Shown here piece after piece: positions 53,485-64,000 of a DNA stretch of 64,000 nt. Origin of the DNA: Paracyclopina nana (taxonomy: Eukaryota > Arthropoda > Copepoda > Cyclopoida > Cyclopettidae); contig JAGUCH010000008.1 in the NCBI GenBank assembly GCA_019096065.1, positions 1,865,001-1,929,000 on the forward strand. The letters are read 5' to 3'. The position numbers and the translations under genes are program-made. The notes beneath the pieces are model-generated. The model saw only the letters and a list, made by a program, of their open reading frames with translations. It searched no databases and was not told the origin of the DNA. Position 1 is the first letter of the stretch. The number at the start of each line of letters is the position of its first letter.

Positions 53485-56400
53485 GTTTGCTAATCCTGCA
53501 AAAGTTGAGCCAGTTTTGATGATACAATCCTCGAGCAGCAAACCAGTTTCACCCAGATGATCAACGCAATCACTTTCATCACAATCAAAGCGACTGAGCT
53601 AAGCGTTTCAAAAACATTCACCTGTGAATAGCGCCATTTGACGTAATATGTCAATAAACAATTGCGGCTCATTGGCGAAAACTCGCCAAATGACTCACGG
53701 TCGCTTAGTAACTGTTGCCATTTGACGGAAAACGCAAAACGTAAACAATGACTGGAGAGAAAAGATGCAAACGCGCAAAACAAGCCGTAAAAAGTGGCGA
53801 GGAGGGCAAAAACCCGGCAAAAAATCACCCAATTCCGCGGAAGGACGCAATAGCCAGGTATGAACCAAAAGATTTCGGCCCCTACTTTCAAAATGGCCGA
53901 ATCACCGCGCACTCGCAAGGTTAGGTGCGATTTTCAAGCATTTTACTCACAGATGTCGGTTAAAAGATGAAAGAATGTTTCGCGGAAAAAAGTCGATGAA
54001 CCCGGTTTTTTGTGAGAGTGCAGCTGTTTTGTAAACATTGAGAGGCCTCACGCGGTTCGATTTTCTCTATGCGCGCCTCTCATTGGCCGAAACGAGCACA
54101 CTGCTCGAAAGCTCGGCCAATCAGCGGACACCTAAGAAAAGGGCCGATTTGCCGGGAAAGAAAGATGGAGGTGGCTAGCCGCAAGCATAGCAAGGCTAGG
54201 TGAATCAAGCTAAGCAAGGCTACCACCGTCATTGTCTCGGTCTTTGCTCGGATTCAATCGCATCTTTTCGGTTTGCTCATCAATATTCATCATCGTCATT
54301 TTCTTTTAAAAGGCCCCTCGGTCGTATATACTAAATACCGCACACAAACGTAACGCACCGCACACTACTAAATACCACACACAGTAAAATATACACATTA
54401 ACTTTCCTTTAAATAATTTGACAACTCAGGCTGTATAGTGTGTGGTATTTAGTAGGCGAGCATACTAAATTCCGCACACACTTGAAAATACGGCAAAAAA
54501 AACCCACCAGATTCTGGTTGAGATAACAGGATTCACACATTATTAAATGTGTTCATGCTTACTCGTATTTCTAGTCACTAAAAATTAATTTGTGTTTTCC
54601 TTCAGCCAGTTTCATAAGTTCGTTGATATAATATAATATAAAAAGTAGTGTGCGTATTTAGTATTTTGCGTTACGTTGCGTTTGTGTGCGTTATTTTGTT
54701 TGTACCCTTATCGGTTGATCCACCAGAAACTACTGCGACGTACCCGGAATAATCTACAATTTACTAAGATAGGACAGGAATATAATCTACTCAGGGGGGT
54801 CTCGTAAGTGAGTTCTTGACGCAAGTTTTGCATGCTAAAATCACCAAATCTGTTTGTCTAAGCCTAGGTGGCGCTAGTAGTTCTTACTACATAGCGCGTG
54901 AGCTCAAGTGACGTGTCAGTCATGGAAGCAAGCGGGCTAATCTCACGCGTCTCCAACAGAGCTCCTAGATAAGTTCTGTCTTTTTTTAAAAAAGTATGCA
55001 ATTTGGGCACTTTTTGATAATTTAAGGCTGGTTAAGGAAATTTTTGGAAGTGAAATCCACAGAATTCTATTGAAATTTTGTCTTGAAGCCTACCACAGCT
55101 CAGTCAGACTGTGTGCTATAGTAAAGCAGCGATAAGAACTCACCTTATTACTATAGATCATCTTGAATCTACTAAACTACAACTAGGCCAGCAAATTAAT
55201 GTATGCAAAATAAACATTAAGATCCTATCTGACTTTGAGGATCAGTTGTCATGGTGGTAGGTCTAGTGTAGATGCAGTTCCTAGTCCGTCACAGTAGTTT
55301 CTATAGATAGCAGTATCATAACAAAGACATACCATCTACCGACTTTTTTGAAGAAACACTTGGGAGTTGAGTTCAAAATCATGTTTTGTTTTGATAGGTC
55401 GAGCCACTTTTTTTAGGGCGGGTAATTTTTTTAAATGGTTACTTTTTTACTAATGCATAGCATCAGGACTCTTAACATCTTGGTATTGAGTGTCTCATGT
55501 ATATCATAGCCTTAAAATCATTCTATTTTACCGTAATGAAGTAATCCTTTTAAAAAATTCAATACACTAATTTGCTTGGGTCTTTATTTCGAACTACTTC
55601 TCCTGTCGCAAAAACGCGGTAACTCAGTTTTTCTTCTCCTGCAGTGTCAGCTGAAAATCCCAAAAGTTGCCCATGAAGGCCGCTGGGATCGCCCTACATC
55701 AATGTTATTGTTATGATGCTGATGTGAATAGAGACCCAAATCATAACATTTTGTCGCTATCTAGTGTAAAAATATGGGAAATACTGGTTTGAAAAGGGAT
55801 GCGACAACTTTTTTGTTGACAAAATGGTGCAATTTTTTTTCAGGTGCACATCCCTTAAAAAAGCAGACATAATTCTGTTTTTTCTTAAGAAAAATAAAAG
55901 GTCTCTATTCCCATAGTGTCTTGGTAGATGCCATTCGAGCACCATTAAGGAGTAGTAGTAGTTTGCATTTCTAGCAATTCTGGCGTTTTGCTTTGCTTAA
56001 TAGACCTTGAAGGGCTCATAGTAGTAAACCCTGATGAAACATCTGGTAACGCTGCAACCTCACATAATTGAGGTGATTTGTGTCCCAGTGAAGTCTTTTA
56101 TAATACATTGCTCTCTGTCATAGTAGTGGGAAAGCAAATGGATGAGACACAATGAGAAGACAAGCCACTGTGACTGATACAGAAATAATTCTGATTTTGG
56201 CTCTTTTGATTAACATGTTGGCAATTTGAAAGTGTACAATTTTCACACCTGGTACCTCCCTATTTTGGTCAACACAATGAAAAGTCATAGAGTACAATTT
56301 TCTTAGCCTGATTTGTCAAAAATATTTGACACCAACCGCATTCTCAGCGTGATGTCAATTCATAACATCTGGTCAAGAAAACTTTTCCTGGAAAATCACA

Positions 56401-56866: not shown

Positions 56867-57817
56867 TTATACAAAGAGTTCAGAAATAGAGATGGGAGAA
56901 AATTCAGAGTGCAAAAACTTGCCATCAATCATTGAACTTCCATCTAAGCTACTTATGGTATACAATGGAATGGGAAACTTTTTGTCAATGGCTACAATAC
57001 GAAATACTTCATTGGCAAATTGTTCATGGTAGGCTCTCTGAAACCTAGAGGTTGGTTTTGAAATCAAAACAGTTTGTCCAATTTTAAATTTTGGTTTCTT
57101 GGTTTTCACTTTTTTATATTTCACTTCATTGAGTCCTCGCACTTGTGTTTGTTTCTTTGCACTTGCTTCTACTTCATTGGGAGTGCATTGCAAAGAGCGA
57201 TGCTTGGTGTTGTTGTACAACTCAGTAAGTTGGTCAAGAGCATCCACAAACTTTGAGGTTTGATTTTCCAGCAAGTACTTGGAAATCTTTACTTGAATGG
57301 TCTTTTGAAAGCGTTCAATCATTGCTGCCTTCCCCAATCTTGTTGGGTGATACATTTCAATACCATGCTTTGCTAGATAGGTCTTCATTTTCATATTTAC
57401 AAACTCTAAACCCTTGTCACAAGTAAGAACTTTAAAGTCACCAAGGTGAGTTTGATGCAAGTTGGTGAATGCTGCCAATACAACATCAGCACTCTTTTTT
57501 TGGAGGGGAACACACCAAGCTTTTTTGGTGAAGCAGTCAATGACAGACATGATGAAAGCATACCCATCATTGGTTTCTTCTTGACGATGAAAGTAAAACA
57601 GGTCTAGGGCTAAGGTTGCACGTGGATGATAGACATAAATGGGAATATGTTGCTTTGCGCGTCTAGACTCGCGAAATTTAGCAAAAGAATCATATTTTTG
57701 GAGGAGTTTTTCAATTTTTCTGCGTGACAATGCCTTGTCCAAGTAGTTGTAGATTTGCTCTACACCACCATAGCCAATGGGGCTTTTGTGGTTTAGGTAA
57801 AGCTTATCCAGAGACAT
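56867..57817 (-). CDS. Polinton DDE integrase (retroviral-like, F54H12.3-type)
   Basis: 316 residues. The RNase-H-fold core has Asp72 (LALDLFYF), Asp134 (LTCDKGLEF) and Glu168 (KAAMIERF), giving D-x61-D-x33-E, close to the D,D-35-E of retroviral integrases, so all three catalytic residues are present. A C-terminal SH3-like region (KFKIGQTVLISKP) follows. No N-terminal zinc-binding HHCC or chromodomain is evident. The enzyme joins element ends to host DNA in the nucleus. The start codon lies inside the end of the TFIIB-like gene (14-bp overlap), so the two are probably co-transcribed. Confidence 0.93.
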   Translation of the reverse strand: MSLDKLYLNHKSPIGYGGVEQIYNYLDKALSRRKIEKLLQKYDSFAKFRESRRAKQHIPIYVYHPRATLALDLFYFHRQEETNDGYAFIMSVIDCFTKKAWCVPLQKKSADVVLAAFTNLHQTHLGDFKVLTCDKGLEFVNMKMKTYLAKHGIEMYHPTRLGKAAMIERFQKTIQVKISKYLLENQTSKFVDALDQLTELYNNTKHRSLQCTPNEVEASAKKQTQVRGLNEVKYKKVKTKKPKFKIGQTVLISKPTSRFQRAYHEQFANEVFRIVAIDKKFPIPLYTISSLDGSSMIDGKFLHSEFSPISISELFV

Positions 57818-58982
57818 TAGCTTTTGTGTGTGAGGTCAACAATGGAGAAACACTTCTTTTTTTCCTCTTAAAAGTTTTAATGGTAGCTTCACGAAAGGCT
57901 GTGGCTTCTGAAGCACCCTGTGCTTCTGAAGGCACTGCCCCGGCCAAGGTAGTGACATGTGAGTCTTGATTGGTGTGCACAAGACCAGATCGCATCATGG
58001 ACCCAGAAGTTTTGAACATTTTCAAGTTGAAGCGATTGATTGCTTCTTTGCTGATGCCTGCAATATCTTGAACATCTTTGTTCTTGCGAATGCTCTTTAA
58101 GTGACTGTAGTAATCATCATCTCTCAATTGGGCCAACGCAATTTGAGCTTGAAGCTGTGATTTCGATTTCACCTGAACAATGCATTGCTTTCTTTGAAAA
58201 GGTGTTAGTTTGGAGTGCTTCTTAGTTGCAATCTCCTTGCGAACAAAGTCTCCAATATGACAAGCCACAATTGTGGCAGGTGAAAAGGAATGATCACTTC
58301 TCATGTAAGCCAAACGTTTCTCAATCTTGATGGCATCTTGACGCTTGATCCCAAGCTTCATGGCAAAGCGAAAGGCCAACTGCCGAGGCTCAATATCAAC
58401 AGACTCTGGAAAGAGCTGTTTGGTTTTCTTCTCCATTCTTTGTTGCATGCATCCAGAGGCTCCAGTCATCTCTCTCAAGGTGAGTGGCACTCCCTCACGC
58501 TTCACCGATTCCATAAAGCAAGCAGCAAAGAGATCTTTGCAAGGCTTGACCGTATGATCTTTGCAAGTAGAATTGAACAGTTCATTTGCATGCACACCAA
58601 ACCTTTCAGGGAGCCCAATGCGATTGCACAGCTCTGCAGCATCCATGTTGTCCTCATACAATGCTGATGCAAATGCGTGCTCTTCCCTCTCTTCATCATC
58701 TTTGAGTTGATAAGGTTGGAATGCAAGACTGCCCAATTCTTCGCCACAATCCGTACAAACAGTAGCAAAGCCATCAACATTTTCAACTGTATTGAAATGC
58801 GGACACCCAGAAGCAGATTTGAGAGATTGGGCAGACTTGCGAAAGCGCTGACCAACTTCAAAAAAGTCCAACACTTTGTGACAGTCTAAACAGTTGGTGT
58901 ACATTCCATTGCGACTGTCCTTGGTTCTCGGATGCAAACATCCAGAATTGCCATTCTGATTTGATTGACAAAGTGTTGACAT
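57804..58982 (-). CDS. TFIIB-like transcription factor encoded by the Polinton
   Basis: 392 residues. Two zinc-ribbon motifs come first: C15/H17...C31/C34 and C60/H62...C76/C79, the second reading GFATVCTDCGEELG as in TFIIB ribbons. A cyclin-fold repeat spans about 120-185, with LPERFGVHANELF and KREGVPLTLREMTGASG corresponding to the TFIIB segment RQEGVPRTFKEI. A second cyclin repeat spans about 195-265, with SFSPATIVACHIGDFVRKE like the RSPISVAAAAIYMAS segment. The tail is basic (KTFKRKKR). TFIIB links TBP-bound promoter DNA to RNA polymerase II and sets the start site. The gene overlaps the TBP-like frame by 97 bp in another frame and the integrase by 14 bp. Similarity is structural and pattern-level, not close. 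Giant viruses have TFIIB-like genes, but I know of none in animal Polintons. Confidence 0.85.
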   Translation of the reverse strand: MSTLCQSNQNGNSGCLHPRTKDSRNGMYTNCLDCHKVLDFFEVGQRFRKSAQSLKSASGCPHFNTVENVDGFATVCTDCGEELGSLAFQPYQLKDDEEREEHAFASALYEDNMDAAELCNRIGLPERFGVHANELFNSTCKDHTVKPCKDLFAACFMESVKREGVPLTLREMTGASGCMQQRMEKKTKQLFPESVDIEPRQLAFRFAMKLGIKRQDAIKIEKRLAYMRSDHSFSPATIVACHIGDFVRKEIATKKHSKLTPFQRKQCIVQVKSKSQLQAQIALAQLRDDDYYSHLKSIRKNKDVQDIAGISKEAINRFNLKMFKTSGSMMRSGLVHTNQDSHVTTLAGAVPSEAQGASEATAFREATIKTFKRKKRSVSPLLTSHTKANVSG

Positions 58983-59500
58983 TGTGGAACAGTCTTGCAG
59001 CCTAGAATCACAAGCTTTTTATTACGGAAATAAAACAACCCAGTGGGTCCTCCAACGGAGCCATGGCTCTGGAGTTTAATGCACACCCCAGAATAGGACT
59101 CGCGATTCTGTCTTATCCAAATATGGTTGTGGGAGGAGTGAATGAGGCGATGAAAAATAGGCTGATCAATTTGAGGGAGAGTGGTGGTGACTGAAAGATT
59201 ATCAATCACAAAATCAGACAAGTTTCCATCTCCAACCAATGCTTGCAAAGTGTCAATTCCATATTGGATGCTACCATGATTTTTTATTCCTGTGAGATTG
59301 ACATGATGACTTGCATGCTTGCCCAACTTGAAAACACTGAGTCTCAATTTGTCTCCACTCACAAATATCAGCACAAAGTTATTGTAGTGTCGAACTGCAA
59401 AACCCTTGTCTTGACACCGCATCAACAAATCAGACATTGAGATTGCACTGCAAGTGACATGACCTTTGATGTTGACCACACACAAAGGCTCTTGAAACAT
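58886..59500 (-). CDS. TATA-binding-protein-like factor encoded by the Polinton
   Basis: 204 residues built of two similar repeats, about 7-90 and 96-187, the layout of the TBP saddle. Repeat 2 aligns without gaps to the TBP core at GLFYFRNKKLVILGCK (TBP: LLIFVSGK-IVLTGAK allowing one residue) and has ESYSGVCIKL where TBP has ELFPGLIYRM. Repeat 1 has NFVLIF and SVFKLGK...NLTGIK. The four intercalating aromatic positions of TBP are filled by Phe42, Phe57, Tyr136 and Phe158. The N-terminal domain of cellular TBP is absent. It lies head-to-head with the capsid gene, the two start codons 29 bp apart, and overlaps the TFIIB-like gene. Sequence identity is low, so the call rests on repeat architecture, the aromatic positions and the TFIIB-like neighbour. 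Confidence 0.78.
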   Translation of the reverse strand: MFQEPLCVVNIKGHVTCSAISMSDLLMRCQDKGFAVRHYNNFVLIFVSGDKLRLSVFKLGKHASHHVNLTGIKNHGSIQYGIDTLQALVGDGNLSDFVIDNLSVTTTLPQIDQPIFHRLIHSSHNHIWIRQNRESYSGVCIKLQSHGSVGGPTGLFYFRNKKLVILGCKTVPQCQHFVNQIRMAILDVCIREPRTVAMECTPTV

Positions 59501-59529
59501 GCTGACAAGGAGACTGCTCTTAAGAAGCC
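59501..59529. promoter_or_regulatory. 29-bp divergent gap between TBP-like and capsid genes
   Basis: Only 29 bp separate the two start codons, and the capsid may start at ATGs 9-12 bp further in. Both core promoters must therefore overlap coding sequence or lie within this gap. No clear TATA box is visible in the 29 bp. Confidence 0.4.
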
Positions 59530-60924
59530 ATGCTTGTTATGATGACTGATCAAATGGATTCAAAGAATTTACCAAGAAGGGTGGGTCTTGGCTCATTGAA
59601 CTCTGATGAGAATGTTCTCTTTTCTTCGAGGCTAGACCTCTTCAAGCCTGAAAAAATAGATGCATCCATCATAAATTCAAATAGGGTCCAGTACTCCACC
59701 CTCTCTCCCTTTGATGGTACTGTTGATACTGCAGGGAGAGTGTACTCATTTTTAGTGACTCCCCAGGGAACATCCTACATTGACCTACAATCTGCAAGGC
59801 TTGTGGGAAGCTGGCAGCTAGTAAAAGTTTCAAATGGAAATGATGTCAGCATATCTGCAACAGATGACATTTCAGTCATATCTATGGTGCCTGCTTCCCT
59901 TTTCAAGTTGACAAGCATTAGCATCAACAATTGCGAAGTTGTATCAAGTGCCAACTTTTTGGGACCCATCAAAGCCTATTTGGAAAATGTCTTTTCATTT
60001 AACAACACCCAAAAGTCCACCTATTTGAAAACCACCCAACACTATTTAGCTGGACCTGACGATCAAGATGATACAGTCAACAAAGTGGTAGCTGGAGACA
60101 CAACATCTGGATTTGCCAAACGCAAAGCCCAGTTTTGCAATAACAAGGCACACGAGTTTGTCATACCCATCAATGCTGATTTATTCAACATGAACTACTT
60201 GATGATTCCCGGAGTCACCATTCGTTTAGACCTGATGAGAAATGACGTCAACTTTTCATTGCTTGGCACAAGTTCAGACACATTTGCCATCAGGCTCAAA
60301 TCTCTAAAATTGGAGATGACTCATGTATCTGTAGCTGAAACAGTGGCAAACCACCATGCTAGCCTCATTCTAAAAGCACCCTTACGCTACCATTTGCCAC
60401 AAATTAAAGTTTCATCACATACTGTTCCTATTGGTGTCTCAGGAGCAACAATCAACTTGGCTCAAGGAACATTGCCCAACCTTGTACTGGTTGGTCTCAT
60501 GCACCAAGACCAGCTAACAAGTCGTTCAAAGAATCCTTTCCACTTCCCTCATTGCAATCTCAATTCAATTTACTTCTCAATCAATTCAGCCATGTACCCT
60601 TCACGCACCTACCAACCAGGATTTGAAAGCGGAGGGAGCACATTGAGAGAGTATTTGGACCTAGTGCAAACGCTCAACCTCGACAACAACCTGAACACTA
60701 AAGAATTCACATACCAACAGTTTCGTAAGGGTCATTCATTGTATGCATTCAACTTGTCAAAGTGCTGTCTCTACCACCGTCATCCCATCAAAACTGGAGC
60801 CTTGGAGCTCCACCTTGGATTTGCAAGCTCTCCAACAACTCCACTGGAAGTCATTGTCTACTCGCTACATGCTTCAGAACTTGTCATTGATAAGGACAGA
60901 ACTGTCAACTTTATGATTCATTAA
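59530..60924 (+). CDS. Polinton capsid-like protein (double jelly-roll type, F54H12.2-like)
   Basis: 464 residues without introns. The opening (SRLDLFKPEKIDASI...VQYSTLSPFDG...GTSYIDLQSARLVGSWQLVK) is typical of the protein family that travels next to the integrase in animal Polintons, often labelled F54H12.2-like, and is taken as virion capsid protein. Beta-rich segments run throughout, with a NFHFPHCNLNSIYFSINSAM-type block (60.54-60.59 kb) in the second half. No transmembrane segment is seen. Whether it is the hexon-like or another jelly-roll virion subunit I cannot settle without structure prediction. The frame is complete, which argues that virion functions were recently under selection. 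Confidence 0.75.
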   Translation: MLVMMTDQMDSKNLPRRVGLGSLNSDENVLFSSRLDLFKPEKIDASIINSNRVQYSTLSPFDGTVDTAGRVYSFLVTPQGTSYIDLQSARLVGSWQLVKVSNGNDVSISATDDISVISMVPASLFKLTSISINNCEVVSSANFLGPIKAYLENVFSFNNTQKSTYLKTTQHYLAGPDDQDDTVNKVVAGDTTSGFAKRKAQFCNNKAHEFVIPINADLFNMNYLMIPGVTIRLDLMRNDVNFSLLGTSSDTFAIRLKSLKLEMTHVSVAETVANHHASLILKAPLRYHLPQIKVSSHTVPIGVSGATINLAQGTLPNLVLVGLMHQDQLTSRSKNPFHFPHCNLNSIYFSINSAMYPSRTYQPGFESGGSTLREYLDLVQTLNLDNNLNTKEFTYQQFRKGHSLYAFNLSKCCLYHRHPIKTGALELHLGFASSPTTPLEVIVYSLHASELVIDKDRTVNFMIH

Positions 60925-60963: not shown

Positions 60964-62133
60964 TTACTTTTTTTGAACAGGCCATAGTTTAAAAGAATTA
61001 TTTTTCTTTGGTCTTCCTCGTTTTCTTGGCATTGATTCTTGTGTGGGAACTTCATCTGTTTGATTCATTTTACGCTTCTGTGGCTCAACTTTTGCTGGGG
61101 GTCCAATACTTTTTCCTCTTCGTTTACCAGAGTTACGCTTACCTTGGGCAACTCGTTTACGCTTGTTTTTTGATTGGTTCCATTCAGGATCCTTTTCATC
61201 CAAACCATGAACATTCATCATGTGCCTTTGTCTAGCTCGCTCAGTCTTGCATCCTTGGTTGCAATAAATGCAAACCAATTTTTCTGGTGCAGACGGCACC
61301 GGTGTTTTTGGTCTTTGAGGTTGGTTAGTTGCGTCCACACGAATATCGAGGCTGTGATGAGCCTTGCAATGGCGATACAGTTTTGGTTCACTCTCAAAGG
61401 TCAATTCGCATAAATCACAACGCCAAACTCTTTTAGTCCTAGGTTTAGTCATGAAATTGTAGGGATCAACGTCAGAAATACTCTCAAAGCTAATTTCAGA
61501 TTCAACTTGTGGTTGTACAGCTACAGCCTCAGTCGCATTCTCATGCACATTTGTTGTATTTGTTGCTTGTGTGGTTGTATTTTCATGGACTCTCTCCACG
61601 TGGTGGGTAAGCAAAGATTGTGTTTTGTAGGATGATGCACAATAAGGACAGTCAAATCTTGGACGCTTTGGTGGGAGGGTAGGAGTTTGTGAGGGTTCAT
61701 GGCTTGTGATCTGGGCTGGAAGTGGTGTTGACGTGTGTCTTGGGTCATCTAAAGTCTGGGAGATGTCTGGTAGATCAGCAGTGACCTCTGAAGCCTCTAG
61801 AGTCATTTGACTCTCATTGGTAGACGCTGGTAGCTCAGGAGTGAGGGAGGGAGGAGGAGCTACTGAAGACTCTGGAGTCATTTGACTGTCATTGACAGAT
61901 GGCAGGATGTTTGGCTGCAATGTGATTGGTGCTAGAATGTGTGGAGTGGATGGTGGCAAAACATCAGCAATTTCATTCATCATGTTGTCTTGCCCAAGGT
62001 TAGTTGTGGGATGTGGATTTAAATTATACAGTAAATTGACTTCGTCTTCATCCAACAGGGCCAACAGTCTTGTATAGAGTGCAAATGGAATGAGAGCAAG
62101 TTTTTCAATGCTATGCGTGTCCCTTGCCCTCAT
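60964..62133 (-). CDS. C2H2 zinc-finger / AT-hook protein of the Polinton
   Basis: 389 residues. The N-terminus (KLALIPFALYTRLLALLDEDE) resembles the start of a common Polinton late protein. A Pro/Thr/Ser-rich stretch follows, then three C2H2-type units (CPYCASSYKTQSLLTHHVERVH; CDLCELTFESEPKLYRHCKAHH; CIYCNQGCKTERARQRHMMNVH). A very basic tail follows, containing an AT-hook core (RKRGRPKK). This suggests a nuclear DNA-binding regulator or packaging factor that gained fingers. It overlaps the upstream small gene by 23 bp, so it is likely co-transcribed with it. Confidence 0.72.
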   Translation of the reverse strand: MRARDTHSIEKLALIPFALYTRLLALLDEDEVNLLYNLNPHPTTNLGQDNMMNEIADVLPPSTPHILAPITLQPNILPSVNDSQMTPESSVAPPPSLTPELPASTNESQMTLEASEVTADLPDISQTLDDPRHTSTPLPAQITSHEPSQTPTLPPKRPRFDCPYCASSYKTQSLLTHHVERVHENTTTQATNTTNVHENATEAVAVQPQVESEISFESISDVDPYNFMTKPRTKRVWRCDLCELTFESEPKLYRHCKAHHSLDIRVDATNQPQRPKTPVPSAPEKLVCIYCNQGCKTERARQRHMMNVHGLDEKDPEWNQSKNKRKRVAQGKRNSGKRRGKSIGPPAKVEPQKRKMNQTDEVPTQESMPRKRGRPKKNNSFKLWPVQKK

Positions 62134-62452
62134 GAAAGCAAGAAAGACCTACCCAAGCGAGCTTAAAGATTTCAATCAGACTTGAGATTTGGCACAACAA
62201 GCGTTTTCTTTTTTCAACAGCGACAGATTTATTGCAAATTTTTTTTATCAGCTTATGTTGACTATGAACAAGCTTTCTTAGTCTTGACTTGATTCTTGTA
62301 TCAAAAGCTACAGCTGTGCTGTAGCAAACGTTAAAGATAGCTTCGCAAAGAGCATTGACTCCACATGCGTCAAGGTTTTGGATAATGTCAATGGCTCCTT
62401 CTTTACAACGGAGTAGTGCCTTGATAATGCAAAGTGATTTTTTACGAGACAT
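62111..62452 (-). CDS. Small conserved Polinton protein
   Basis: 113 residues: MSRKKSLCIIKALLRCKEG..., NALCEAIFNVCYST, RLRKLVHSQHKLIKKICNKSV, KRKRLLCQ. This order (short helix, Cys-Glu helix, basic helices, LL-Q) is a small protein seen repeatedly near the packaging ATPase in invertebrate Polintons, whose members usually end in a Gly-Gly-Phe-Leu hydrophobic tail. Here the tail is different. Function unknown; a minor virion component is the usual guess. It starts 27 bp after the ATPase stop. Confidence 0.6.
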   Translation of the reverse strand: MSRKKSLCIIKALLRCKEGAIDIIQNLDACGVNALCEAIFNVCYSTAVAFDTRIKSRLRKLVHSQHKLIKKICNKSVAVEKRKRLLCQISSLIEIFKLAWVGLSCFHEGKGHA

Positions 62453-62479
62453 TTGTTCTAAAAAACTGTATCTTGTACC

Positions 62480-63322
62480 TTAAGTGCGTGCATTCTTTTC
62501 AAGGTAAGCAATGAGAGGACGTTCAAAGCTAAACATGTTTGTCCGAAGGCGTAAATGTTCTGGGCATTGTTGCTGAAAAACAAAAAAAAATGCATGCAAA
62601 GGAAAATCAAATGCAATTGGATTACCTGAAAATCAATGACAAGGTAACCATAGCTATGACTTGTGGCGTCTTTGTAAGCATCAATGACAAATCTTGTGTG
62701 GTAGGGACGAAACTGACTCGCAATGCTGATCATATCACGAGTTGACCTTGGATTTTTTGTCAGGACAAACACCTGGCTTTGTAGTGAGATTTGCTTGTAG
62801 ACAGGACTTTGAAAAAATATAGATTGACTGACAAAAATGAGCGAAAGCTTGAGATGGTGAACACAAACAGTGACCTAAAATGGAAAGAGTGCATCATGCA
62901 AAGGACATGCAAATGAATGAAATGACTTACTGCTTCGATGAATTCAATAGATTTGAGAGTTGCCAATAGTTGATCATCAAATATGATGAGGAGTGAACCA
63001 CCCTTATTCTTTTCAGCTCTTGCCAACGCTTTCAGCTCCTCCATACTAATCATGCGTGCGATGGAATCATCAATCAACCCTTCACGTCGCATATCATTAT
63101 ACATTTCTTGGTTTTCTTTGTACACCAAAAAAACCCGGGTTGGTGCTGGTGAAAAAATACGATGCTTCTCTTTGAGCGCATTGTACACAAATGTAGTTTT
63201 GCCAGACTGAACAAGATGAAAAATATTTACAAATGTACATTTATTTTTATTTTCAAAATTGTTACTTTACTAGGTCCAGCAATGAGAATGCTACAAGGTG
63301 TTTCAAAGGAACATGAATACAT
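62480..63322 (-). CDS. FtsK/A32-type genome-packaging ATPase of the Polinton, four exons
   Basis: Exons on the minus strand are 63322-63266, 63206-62931, 62874-62626 and 62572-62480. They are separated by introns of 59, 56 and 53 bp, all phase 0 with GT-AG ends. The spliced product is 224 residues, the usual size for this family. The Walker A loop (GPSK|SGKTT) is divided exactly by intron 1. Walker B is LLIIFDDQ. The C-terminal blocks KNPRSTRDM, DAYKDATSHSYGYLVIDF and LRLRTNMF match A32/Maverick ATPases. The enzyme pumps DNA into capsids of adintovirus-type particles. Without splicing no functional ATPase is encoded, so expression depends on the host spliceosome. Start chosen as the ATG at 63322, giving a 12-14 residue lead to the P-loop as in relatives. 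Confidence 0.9.
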
Positions 63323-63405: not shown

Positions 63406-64000
63406 CTAAAAATGAAGACGATGGGGACAGGTGGTTGACCAATGCCACAAAGAACCGCAGCGATAGCATTGACCATACGGAGGCTGTGGGGGATAGGGCA
63501 GATTGCTCAAGAGAGGCACGGTTTGCCATGCTGCAGTCATCATGGGATTGGATTGGAACTGTTGTGCACGCTGTTGAGCATGCTGTTGAGCATGCTGAAC
63601 ATGTCGCATGGCCTCCAAATGAAATTGGAGTCCTTGCTGAGTAAATGGGTCAGAAGGTTCCAATGCTGCAGCAGGACCAGAGGGTCCAGACATTGCCGAA
63701 AGTGGAGGTGCTGGAGCCAGCACAAGAGGTTGTGGAGGTGGGTCAACCACCTCTTCTTCCTCTACTGGTATTGCATCCTCAAGTTGAGGCTCTTGCATCA
63801 AGATGTGTGCAACTGCCTCTTCTACTTCTTCAGCTCTTGCAGTCTCTTCAGCAACAACATTGTTGCTCTCTAGGTCGTCTTCCAGAGCATTTCCAGGCTC
63901 CACAAATGCCAAAGGTGATTGGGCAATTGGGACTGGAGCATCCAACACCAAGGGAGCATCAATCCAGAATTGATCCTCTTCCAATAGCAAAAGCTCATCA
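63406..64000 (-). CDS. Proline-rich zinc-knuckle protein of the Polinton (5' end outside window)
   Basis: The frame is open to the window edge. The visible part is acidic and Pro-rich (VEEEEVVDPPPQPLVLAPAP), then has a Gln/His/Ala stretch (HVQHAQQHAQQRAQQFQ), and ends with a CCHC zinc knuckle C-x2-C-x4-H-x4-C (CYRCGSLWHWSTTC) close to the stop. Zinc knuckles bind single-stranded nucleic acid, as in Gag proteins, though nothing else here is Gag-like. It lies 83 bp upstream of the ATPase on the same strand. Function unknown. Confidence 0.65.
   Translation of the reverse strand, partial: DELLLLEEDQFWIDAPLVLDAPVPIAQSPLAFVEPGNALEDDLESNNVVAEETARAEEVEEAVAHILMQEPQLEDAIPVEEEEVVDPPPQPLVLAPAPPLSAMSGPSGPAAALEPSDPFTQQGLQFHLEAMRHVQHAQQHAQQRAQQFQSNPMMTAAWQTVPLLSNLPYPPQPPYGQCYRCGSLWHWSTTCPHRLHF

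Follow-up and report, generated by a model that had tools for sequence, protein, structure and literature searches.

Polintons, or Mavericks (Polintoviricetes; in animals, the adintoviruses), are recognised by inverted repeats, a 6-bp duplication, a protein-primed-type PolB, a retrovirus-type integrase and a capsid-like gene, and those of animals are generally assumed to be transcribed by the unmodified RNA polymerase II (Pol II) machinery of the host. Here we describe an element of this type from the copepod Paracyclopina nana, found in a 64,000-nucleotide stretch of contig JAGUCH010000008.1 (positions C8:1865001-1929000 in our contig numbering, hereafter the window), which differs from these elements in encoding a pair of proteins related to the TATA-binding protein (TBP) and TFIIB, a pair not described in the Polinton literature examined. 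An earlier note on this sequence had stated that the pair was not known to have been described in Polintons or adintoviruses, and our search of the open literature (5.39 million papers), from whose coverage most subscription journals and the key adintovirus and nematode Polinton papers were absent, likewise found none. In the accessible text of a paper on Polintons (PMC11071308) the terms TFIIB, TBP and transcription each occur zero times, while the literature that joins Polintons with TFIIB, as far as its text was accessible, treats TFIIB as a marker of giant viruses or has giant viruses or archaeal elements as its subject.

The closest described systems are viral or archaeal, and the sources cited for them were accessible in part, so that our statements refer to that part of each. 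African swine fever virus has TBP and TFIIB homologues, B263R and C315R, proposed to act at the virus's own promoters, though it encodes a Pol II-like polymerase as well, whereas none was recognised in the 22 kb integrated element described here (PMC7458399). Nearest in logic is the algal virus CpV-BQ1, whose TBP and two TFIIBs have been proposed to redirect host Pol II, albeit that CpV-BQ1 is a large algal virus and not a Polinton, and is likened to our element by proposed role and not by kinship of the proteins (PMC12085832). Poxvirus VITF-3, an atypical TBP/TFIIB-like heterodimer, is a further instance of paired factors in a DNA virus, which differs in having a viral RNA polymerase as partner and a tripartite TBP fold, the protein of our element comprising two ordinary repeats (PMC12917281). 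Thaumarchaeal integrative-conjugative elements are mobile elements with the general initiation factor TFIIB; these are archaeal, their TFIIB gene mostly adjoins a ParB-like gene, and the accessible text lacks the term TBP (PMC6563490).

Homology of the TBP-like and TFIIB-like proteins

The survey covered the 92 Mb genome in its 10 contigs and located 14 loci with a TBP-like gene, belonging to six diverged families of the pair that we named A (that of the window; three loci) to F (B one, C three, D two, E three and F two loci). A profile, A1, was built from seven TBP-like proteins of this genome, with near-identical and broken copies left out (among them the second family D copy). Searched against the sequences of solved structures A1 gave 35 matches, 34 of which, fusions among them, carry the name TBP or TFIID (best E 1.4e-16), the remaining one being named only as ECU04_1440 protein; the window protein alone matched no TBP among these sequences. 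PF00352 was matched by all seven A1 members (best E 1.4e-10), and in the genome search the Pfam TBP family scored above cut-off in families B-F. Alignment of A1 with two canonical TBPs covered residues 20-194 of the 216 of the window frame (hhalign probability 96.7, E 3.9e-10), in agreement with the two TBP repeats read by the earlier note. Compared directly with each other, repeats 1 and 2 of the element protein were weakly similar (E 0.058 over 20 columns), and one alignment with canonical TBPs was set aside because repeat 1 was judged to be in the wrong register. Positions F54, F69, Y148 and F170, the DNA-kinking positions of TBP, are aromatic in all seven aligned proteins, extending to every family member aligned what the earlier note had seen in the window copy. 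N22 and T82 are also kept in seven of seven and N113 in six, and the stirrup glutamate, a TFIIB contact of TBP, is present in 6/7. By profile comparison, the TBP-like protein is a homologue of TBP. Among 3872 open frames of the surveyed loci, A1 matched the element TBP frames and, apart from these, the host TBP alone (E 3.6e-11), a separate gene that lies in pieces at C3:5094770-5095344; a second host TBP-type gene, at C1:12294725-12295313, was not matched by A1.

The profile of the partner, A2, comprised six TFIIB-like proteins, near-identical and broken copies again being left out (the second family D copy and the split family E TFIIB). A2 gave 16 matches among the sequences of solved structures, the first 10 of which were TFIIB, the best (5.8e-25) running across both cyclin repeats. 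Of the other six, three are subunits of TFIIIB or fusions with E from 3e-4 to 0.011, one is a cyclin-like subunit (0.013), and two (0.03 and 0.3) are unrelated proteins. The profile aligned with human TFIIB through both cyclin repeats, and the window protein alone matched human TFIIB at E 0.0044. Five of the six A2 members matched PF00382 (best E 9.5e-10), and Pfam TFIIB was above cut-off in families B and E in the genome search. In the window frame two zinc ribbons, both spaced C-x-H-x13-C-x2-C, begin at residues 27 and 72, in line with the architecture of two ribbons and two cyclin folds that the earlier note had proposed. Two ribbons per protein are found in family A and one in the other families, the spacing being C-x-H-x13-C-x2-C in A, D, E and F and C-x-C-x12-C-x2-C in B and C; the Cys/His pattern was present in 7/7 sequences inspected from families A-F (all six A2 members plus family E), while PF08271 was matched by two of the six A2 members, below its cut-off. 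By inspection the stretch between ribbon and core, where a B-reader and B-linker would lie, appears short, and shortest in families B and C, and the second cyclin repeat of the window copy carries a long insertion relative to the other families. On profile evidence the TFIIB-like protein is a homologue of TFIIB. Relatives from families B, D and F, taken singly, match NCBIfam models of archaeal TBP and TFIIB, far below their strict cut-offs. A further candidate TFIIB-like locus, L008 (24 bits), was dropped as profile A2 gave no match to it.

Conservation and linkage of the pair

In the window the TBP-like open frame spans 58886-59536 (216 codons; first ATG at 59500, giving 204 aa), the TFIIB-like frame 57804-59018 (404 codons; first ATG at 58982, giving 392 aa) and the integrase frame 56867-57835 (first ATG at 57817), with overlaps of 97 nt between the TBP-like and TFIIB-like genes and of 14 nt between the TFIIB-like and integrase genes; the coordinates of the pair, and its description as two overlapping genes upstream of the integrase, had been given correctly. 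The order capsid-like, TBP, TFIIB, integrase is kept at all 14 loci, each with a capsid-like match on one flank of the TBP-like gene and the TFIIB-like gene and integrase on the other, families E and F having an extra open reading frame (ORF) between TFIIB and integrase. Genes are broken at several loci (the second D copy, E). The invariant order and the conservation of the pair establish that it belongs to the element, and it is located inside the inverted repeats. Neither of the outcomes named beforehand as telling against the observation occurred: the profiles matched the TBP and TFIIB folds, and in the survey of this genome the pair was present in other copies. The observation itself is thereby confirmed.

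Identity between the window proteins and those of the other families is 23-25% for the TBP-like and 20-27% for the TFIIB-like protein. Differences between the window and the C2 copy amount to 2 nt in TBP and 4 nt in TFIIB. The ratio of nonsynonymous to synonymous substitution (dN/dS) between the window and the C9 copy was 0.21 for TBP, 0.19 for TFIIB, 0.07 for integrase and 0.06 for the capsid-like gene, rough values from one copy pair with overlapping genes. A protein search with the capsid-like alignment gave 7 matches, the best 70% identical.

Polinton identity of the element

The window's element is, on most counts, a Polinton, as the earlier note had it. With its ends set by inverted repeats, it is 22.1 kb long, running from window position 55957 to about C8:1943046, past the window end. 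The presumed target-site duplication, AGTAGT, stands again directly after the right end, outside the window, although AGT repeats leave the exact edge of this copy ambiguous. Two further family A copies lie at C2:6440510-6462156 and C9:3980348-4003015, and both ends of the long terminal inverted repeats were located in three copies. The family A PolB, outside the window, consists of four pieces collinear with the 1066-residue PolB frame of family B (E 8e-21 to 6e-45), only one of which is detected by Pfam alone (E 0.032); PF03175 (PolB) is above cut-off in families B, C, D and G. The last of these is a further Polinton family of the same genome, which has a related capsid-like gene in six locations, near four of which both integrase and PolB, and near two PolB alone, were found. 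The listed ORFs of the element include none recognised as an RNA polymerase, no search having been aimed at polymerases.

Pairs of a family-C-like integrase in inverted orientation, about 17 kb apart, were observed at C7:4631886-4649281, C9:2262738-2280144 and C3:1719048-1736449 (L043, L046, L047, L049, L050 and L056), with PolB at C7:4635947 and C9:2266793; L046 holds an ORF with BIR and RING domains, like an inhibitor of apoptosis (IAP; PF00653 E 2.4e-20), and the tail only of the TFIIB-like gene.

A motif upstream of family A genes

Seven of eight family A starts have the motif CT(2-4)A(2-4)G in the 60 nt upstream of them, the capsid-like and TBP genes having one site in common, as compared to 2.9% of 60-mers of the element and 1.7% of those of the host; the starts of the ATPase-like, penton-like, RING, 63406 and L073 ORFs were omitted as uncertain. 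When 108 patterns of the same form were compared, this one was found at 6/7 independent family A starts and the runner-up at one, and the best score of any pattern in the nulls (2000 random draws and 2000 shuffles) was 4. The site is retained in five of six comparisons with the C2 and C9 copies, which cover three of the four sites, that of the small basic gene being unreached. Its distance from the ATG ranges from 8 to 57 nt, which is variable for a TATA-type box. As an element promoter site we regard it as a lead and no more. TATA[AT][AT] was present in the 150 nt upstream of just 2 of 22 starts, exact 8-mers common to the upstream regions were not above shuffles, and the idea of a late-promoter-like TAAG was dropped after inspection by eye.

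Proposed role of the pair

The explanation that accounts best for these data, and that we consider probable, is that the TBP/TFIIB module recruits host Pol II to the promoters of the element. A Polinton lineage would have gained the TBP and TFIIB genes before the present families diverged and would have kept the pair as a single module between the capsid-like gene and the integrase. We predict that AT-rich DNA in the element's promoters is bound and bent by the TBP-like protein, on which the TFIIB-like protein would dock via its cyclin repeats, bringing in host Pol II by its zinc ribbon, such that the genes of the element initiate at element-specific promoters, in family A perhaps at the CT(2-4)A(2-4)G site near the start codons. 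As no RNA polymerase of the element was recognised and candidate introns are present in its ATPase-like gene, whose transcripts would be nuclear and spliced, host Pol II is the natural partner. A dedicated promoter recognition, in which the pair reads a CT(2-4)A(2-4)G-type site in family A and sites of its own in the other families before handing over to host Pol II, is possible but to be viewed with some doubt. The interpretation first placed on the pair is partly supported: its place in a Polinton and its homology to TBP and TFIIB stand, and we still infer, as did the earlier note, a binding to promoter DNA and a steering of host Pol II.

Several results weigh against Pol II recruitment by the pair. 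Taken singly, the window proteins fall below Pfam cut-offs, with PF00352 as the sole family listed for the TBP-like protein (E 0.023) and PF00382 as the top of two for the TFIIB-like protein (E 0.088), and single-sequence AlphaFold models of the two had a mean pLDDT (a per-residue confidence score) of 36.5 and 36.6 and were uninformative. The second conserved threonine of TBP is kept in just one of seven proteins. Outside this genome, protein searches gave two matches for A1, both read as canonical TBPs, and zero for A2, while scans of IMG/VR returned 229 (TBP), 41 (TFIIB), 88 (capsid-like) and 3 (P0004) pattern matches, among which no relative was confirmed. In family G the pair was not detected by A1 or A2 in five pieces (L035-L039, about 3.7 kb each) or by Pfam, a partial test of absence since Pfam searches also missed family A; this suggests that the pair is not required by every Polinton. 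The motif was first spotted by eye, as CT{2,4}A{2,3}G, and then widened once to its symmetric form, and the upstream motif that had been anticipated stood for the window's family and failed in families B, C, D and F, where it was found at 0/11 starts (11 of the 14 non-A starts, D_INT, F_TBP and F_INT being dropped and family E not included).

Among the alternatives, the captured TBP and TFIIB may have ceased to act in initiation and serve instead in replication, packaging or DNA condensation. The very high divergence between families, together with the shortness of the ribbon-to-repeat stretch in families B and C, fits such a repurposing, which we nevertheless consider unlikely given that both partners of one known complex stand side by side with their DNA-contact residues. 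About as unlikely is interference with the host, whereby the pair would compete for host initiation partners and lower host transcription: the partly kept surfaces (the stirrup glutamate and the zinc ribbon) could bind host partners, but DNA-kinking side chains would be dispensable in a decoy, whereas the four positions are aromatic throughout, and joint retention at every locus better fits a working pair. The pair could also mark promoters and thereby guide the integrase, which neighbours it at all 14 loci and overlaps it in family A, in the manner of the Ty3 retrotransposon. Ty3 targeting depends on TFIIIB, whereas the protein here is TFIIB-like and not TFIIIB-like. Ty3 integrates upstream of Pol III-transcribed genes (PMC8632968, accessible in part), while the window has two predicted tRNAs, of which the nearer is about 14.5 kb away from the insertion, and we regard such targeting as the least likely of these three. 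Chance resemblance or misassigned host exons, for which the sub-threshold Pfam scores of the single window proteins might speak, can be regarded as refuted by the occurrence of the pair in six families and at 14 loci, E-values of the profiles down to 1e-16 and 1e-25, a host TBP that is a separate gene and the position of the pair within the inverted repeats.

Should recruitment of Pol II by the pair hold true, an endogenous virus or transposon would set its own promoter code and be able to slip promoter-level control by the host, and would offer a present-day comparison for the gain of transcription independence by DNA viruses, as debated under nuclear escape (PMC10328495, accessible in part). 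A dedicated promoter system, if real, would mean that a nuclear element has acquired part of a transcription machinery, as the nuclear-escape idea of giant-virus origin assumes. Such diverged TBP-TFIIB pairs would also provide material for asking what promoter recognition minimally needs.

Gene map and neighbouring features

The features of the element and the family G sites are collected in Table 1.

Table 1. Features of the window's element and sites of family G (window positions unless a contig is given)
Feature	Position	Strand	Basis or remark
Presumed 6-bp target-site duplication AGTAGT, left copy	55951..55956		read from sequence
Left terminal inverted repeat	55957..56287		partner C8:1942717-1943050, 93% identity over query 4-338
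Retrovirus-type integrase	56867..57817	-	PF00665 E 9.8e-8, at family cut-off
TFIIB-like gene: two zinc ribbons, two cyclin-type repeats, basic tail	57804..58982	-	profile, pattern
TBP-like gene: two TBP repeats	58886..59500	-	Pfam, profile
53-bp gap from the first ATG of the TBP-like gene to that of the divergent capsid-like gene	59501..59553		CTTAAG at 59519-59524
Major capsid-like gene (weak assignment)	59554..60924	+	PF21738 double jelly roll E 0.014, below cut-off
C2H2 zinc-finger ORF	60964..62133	-	PF13894 E 4.3e-8
Small basic ORF	62111..62452	-	without Pfam family
ATPase-like gene, exon pieces	62458..63266	-	by eye, P-loop-like SGKT; no ATPase family match
Element ORF continuing beyond the window edge	63406..64000	-
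RING-finger ORF inside the element	C8:1929067-1929438 (L072:67-438)	-	PF14634 E 1.1e-6
Family G sites	near C1:16556k, C2:15982k, C3:4103k, C3:9957k, C4:2811k, C9:6278k

The start of the capsid-like gene was set where it is because its relative P0003 starts at the corresponding methionine. PF21738 was matched by one of four members of the capsid-like family, and a structure-sequence search with the capsid-like protein gave no match to solved capsid structures. A gene model of Ephemera danica, B566_EDAN015148 (P0006), has capsid-like and integrase parts fused in one predicted protein. The candidate introns of the ATPase-like gene, of GT-AG type and 53-64 nt in length (63270-63207, 62930-62875 and 62625-62573), are three of five pattern matches and were picked by eye.

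Immediately left of the element lie two host repeats (window 54792-55165 and 55303-55730) with many near-identical copies in the genome. Two elements of about 20 kb with family A inverted repeats, at C3:938685-959244 and C3:8272219-8293684, are perhaps non-autonomous derivatives; the first 6 kb of the former (L075) has tandem repeats in common with family A and no recognisable family A gene.

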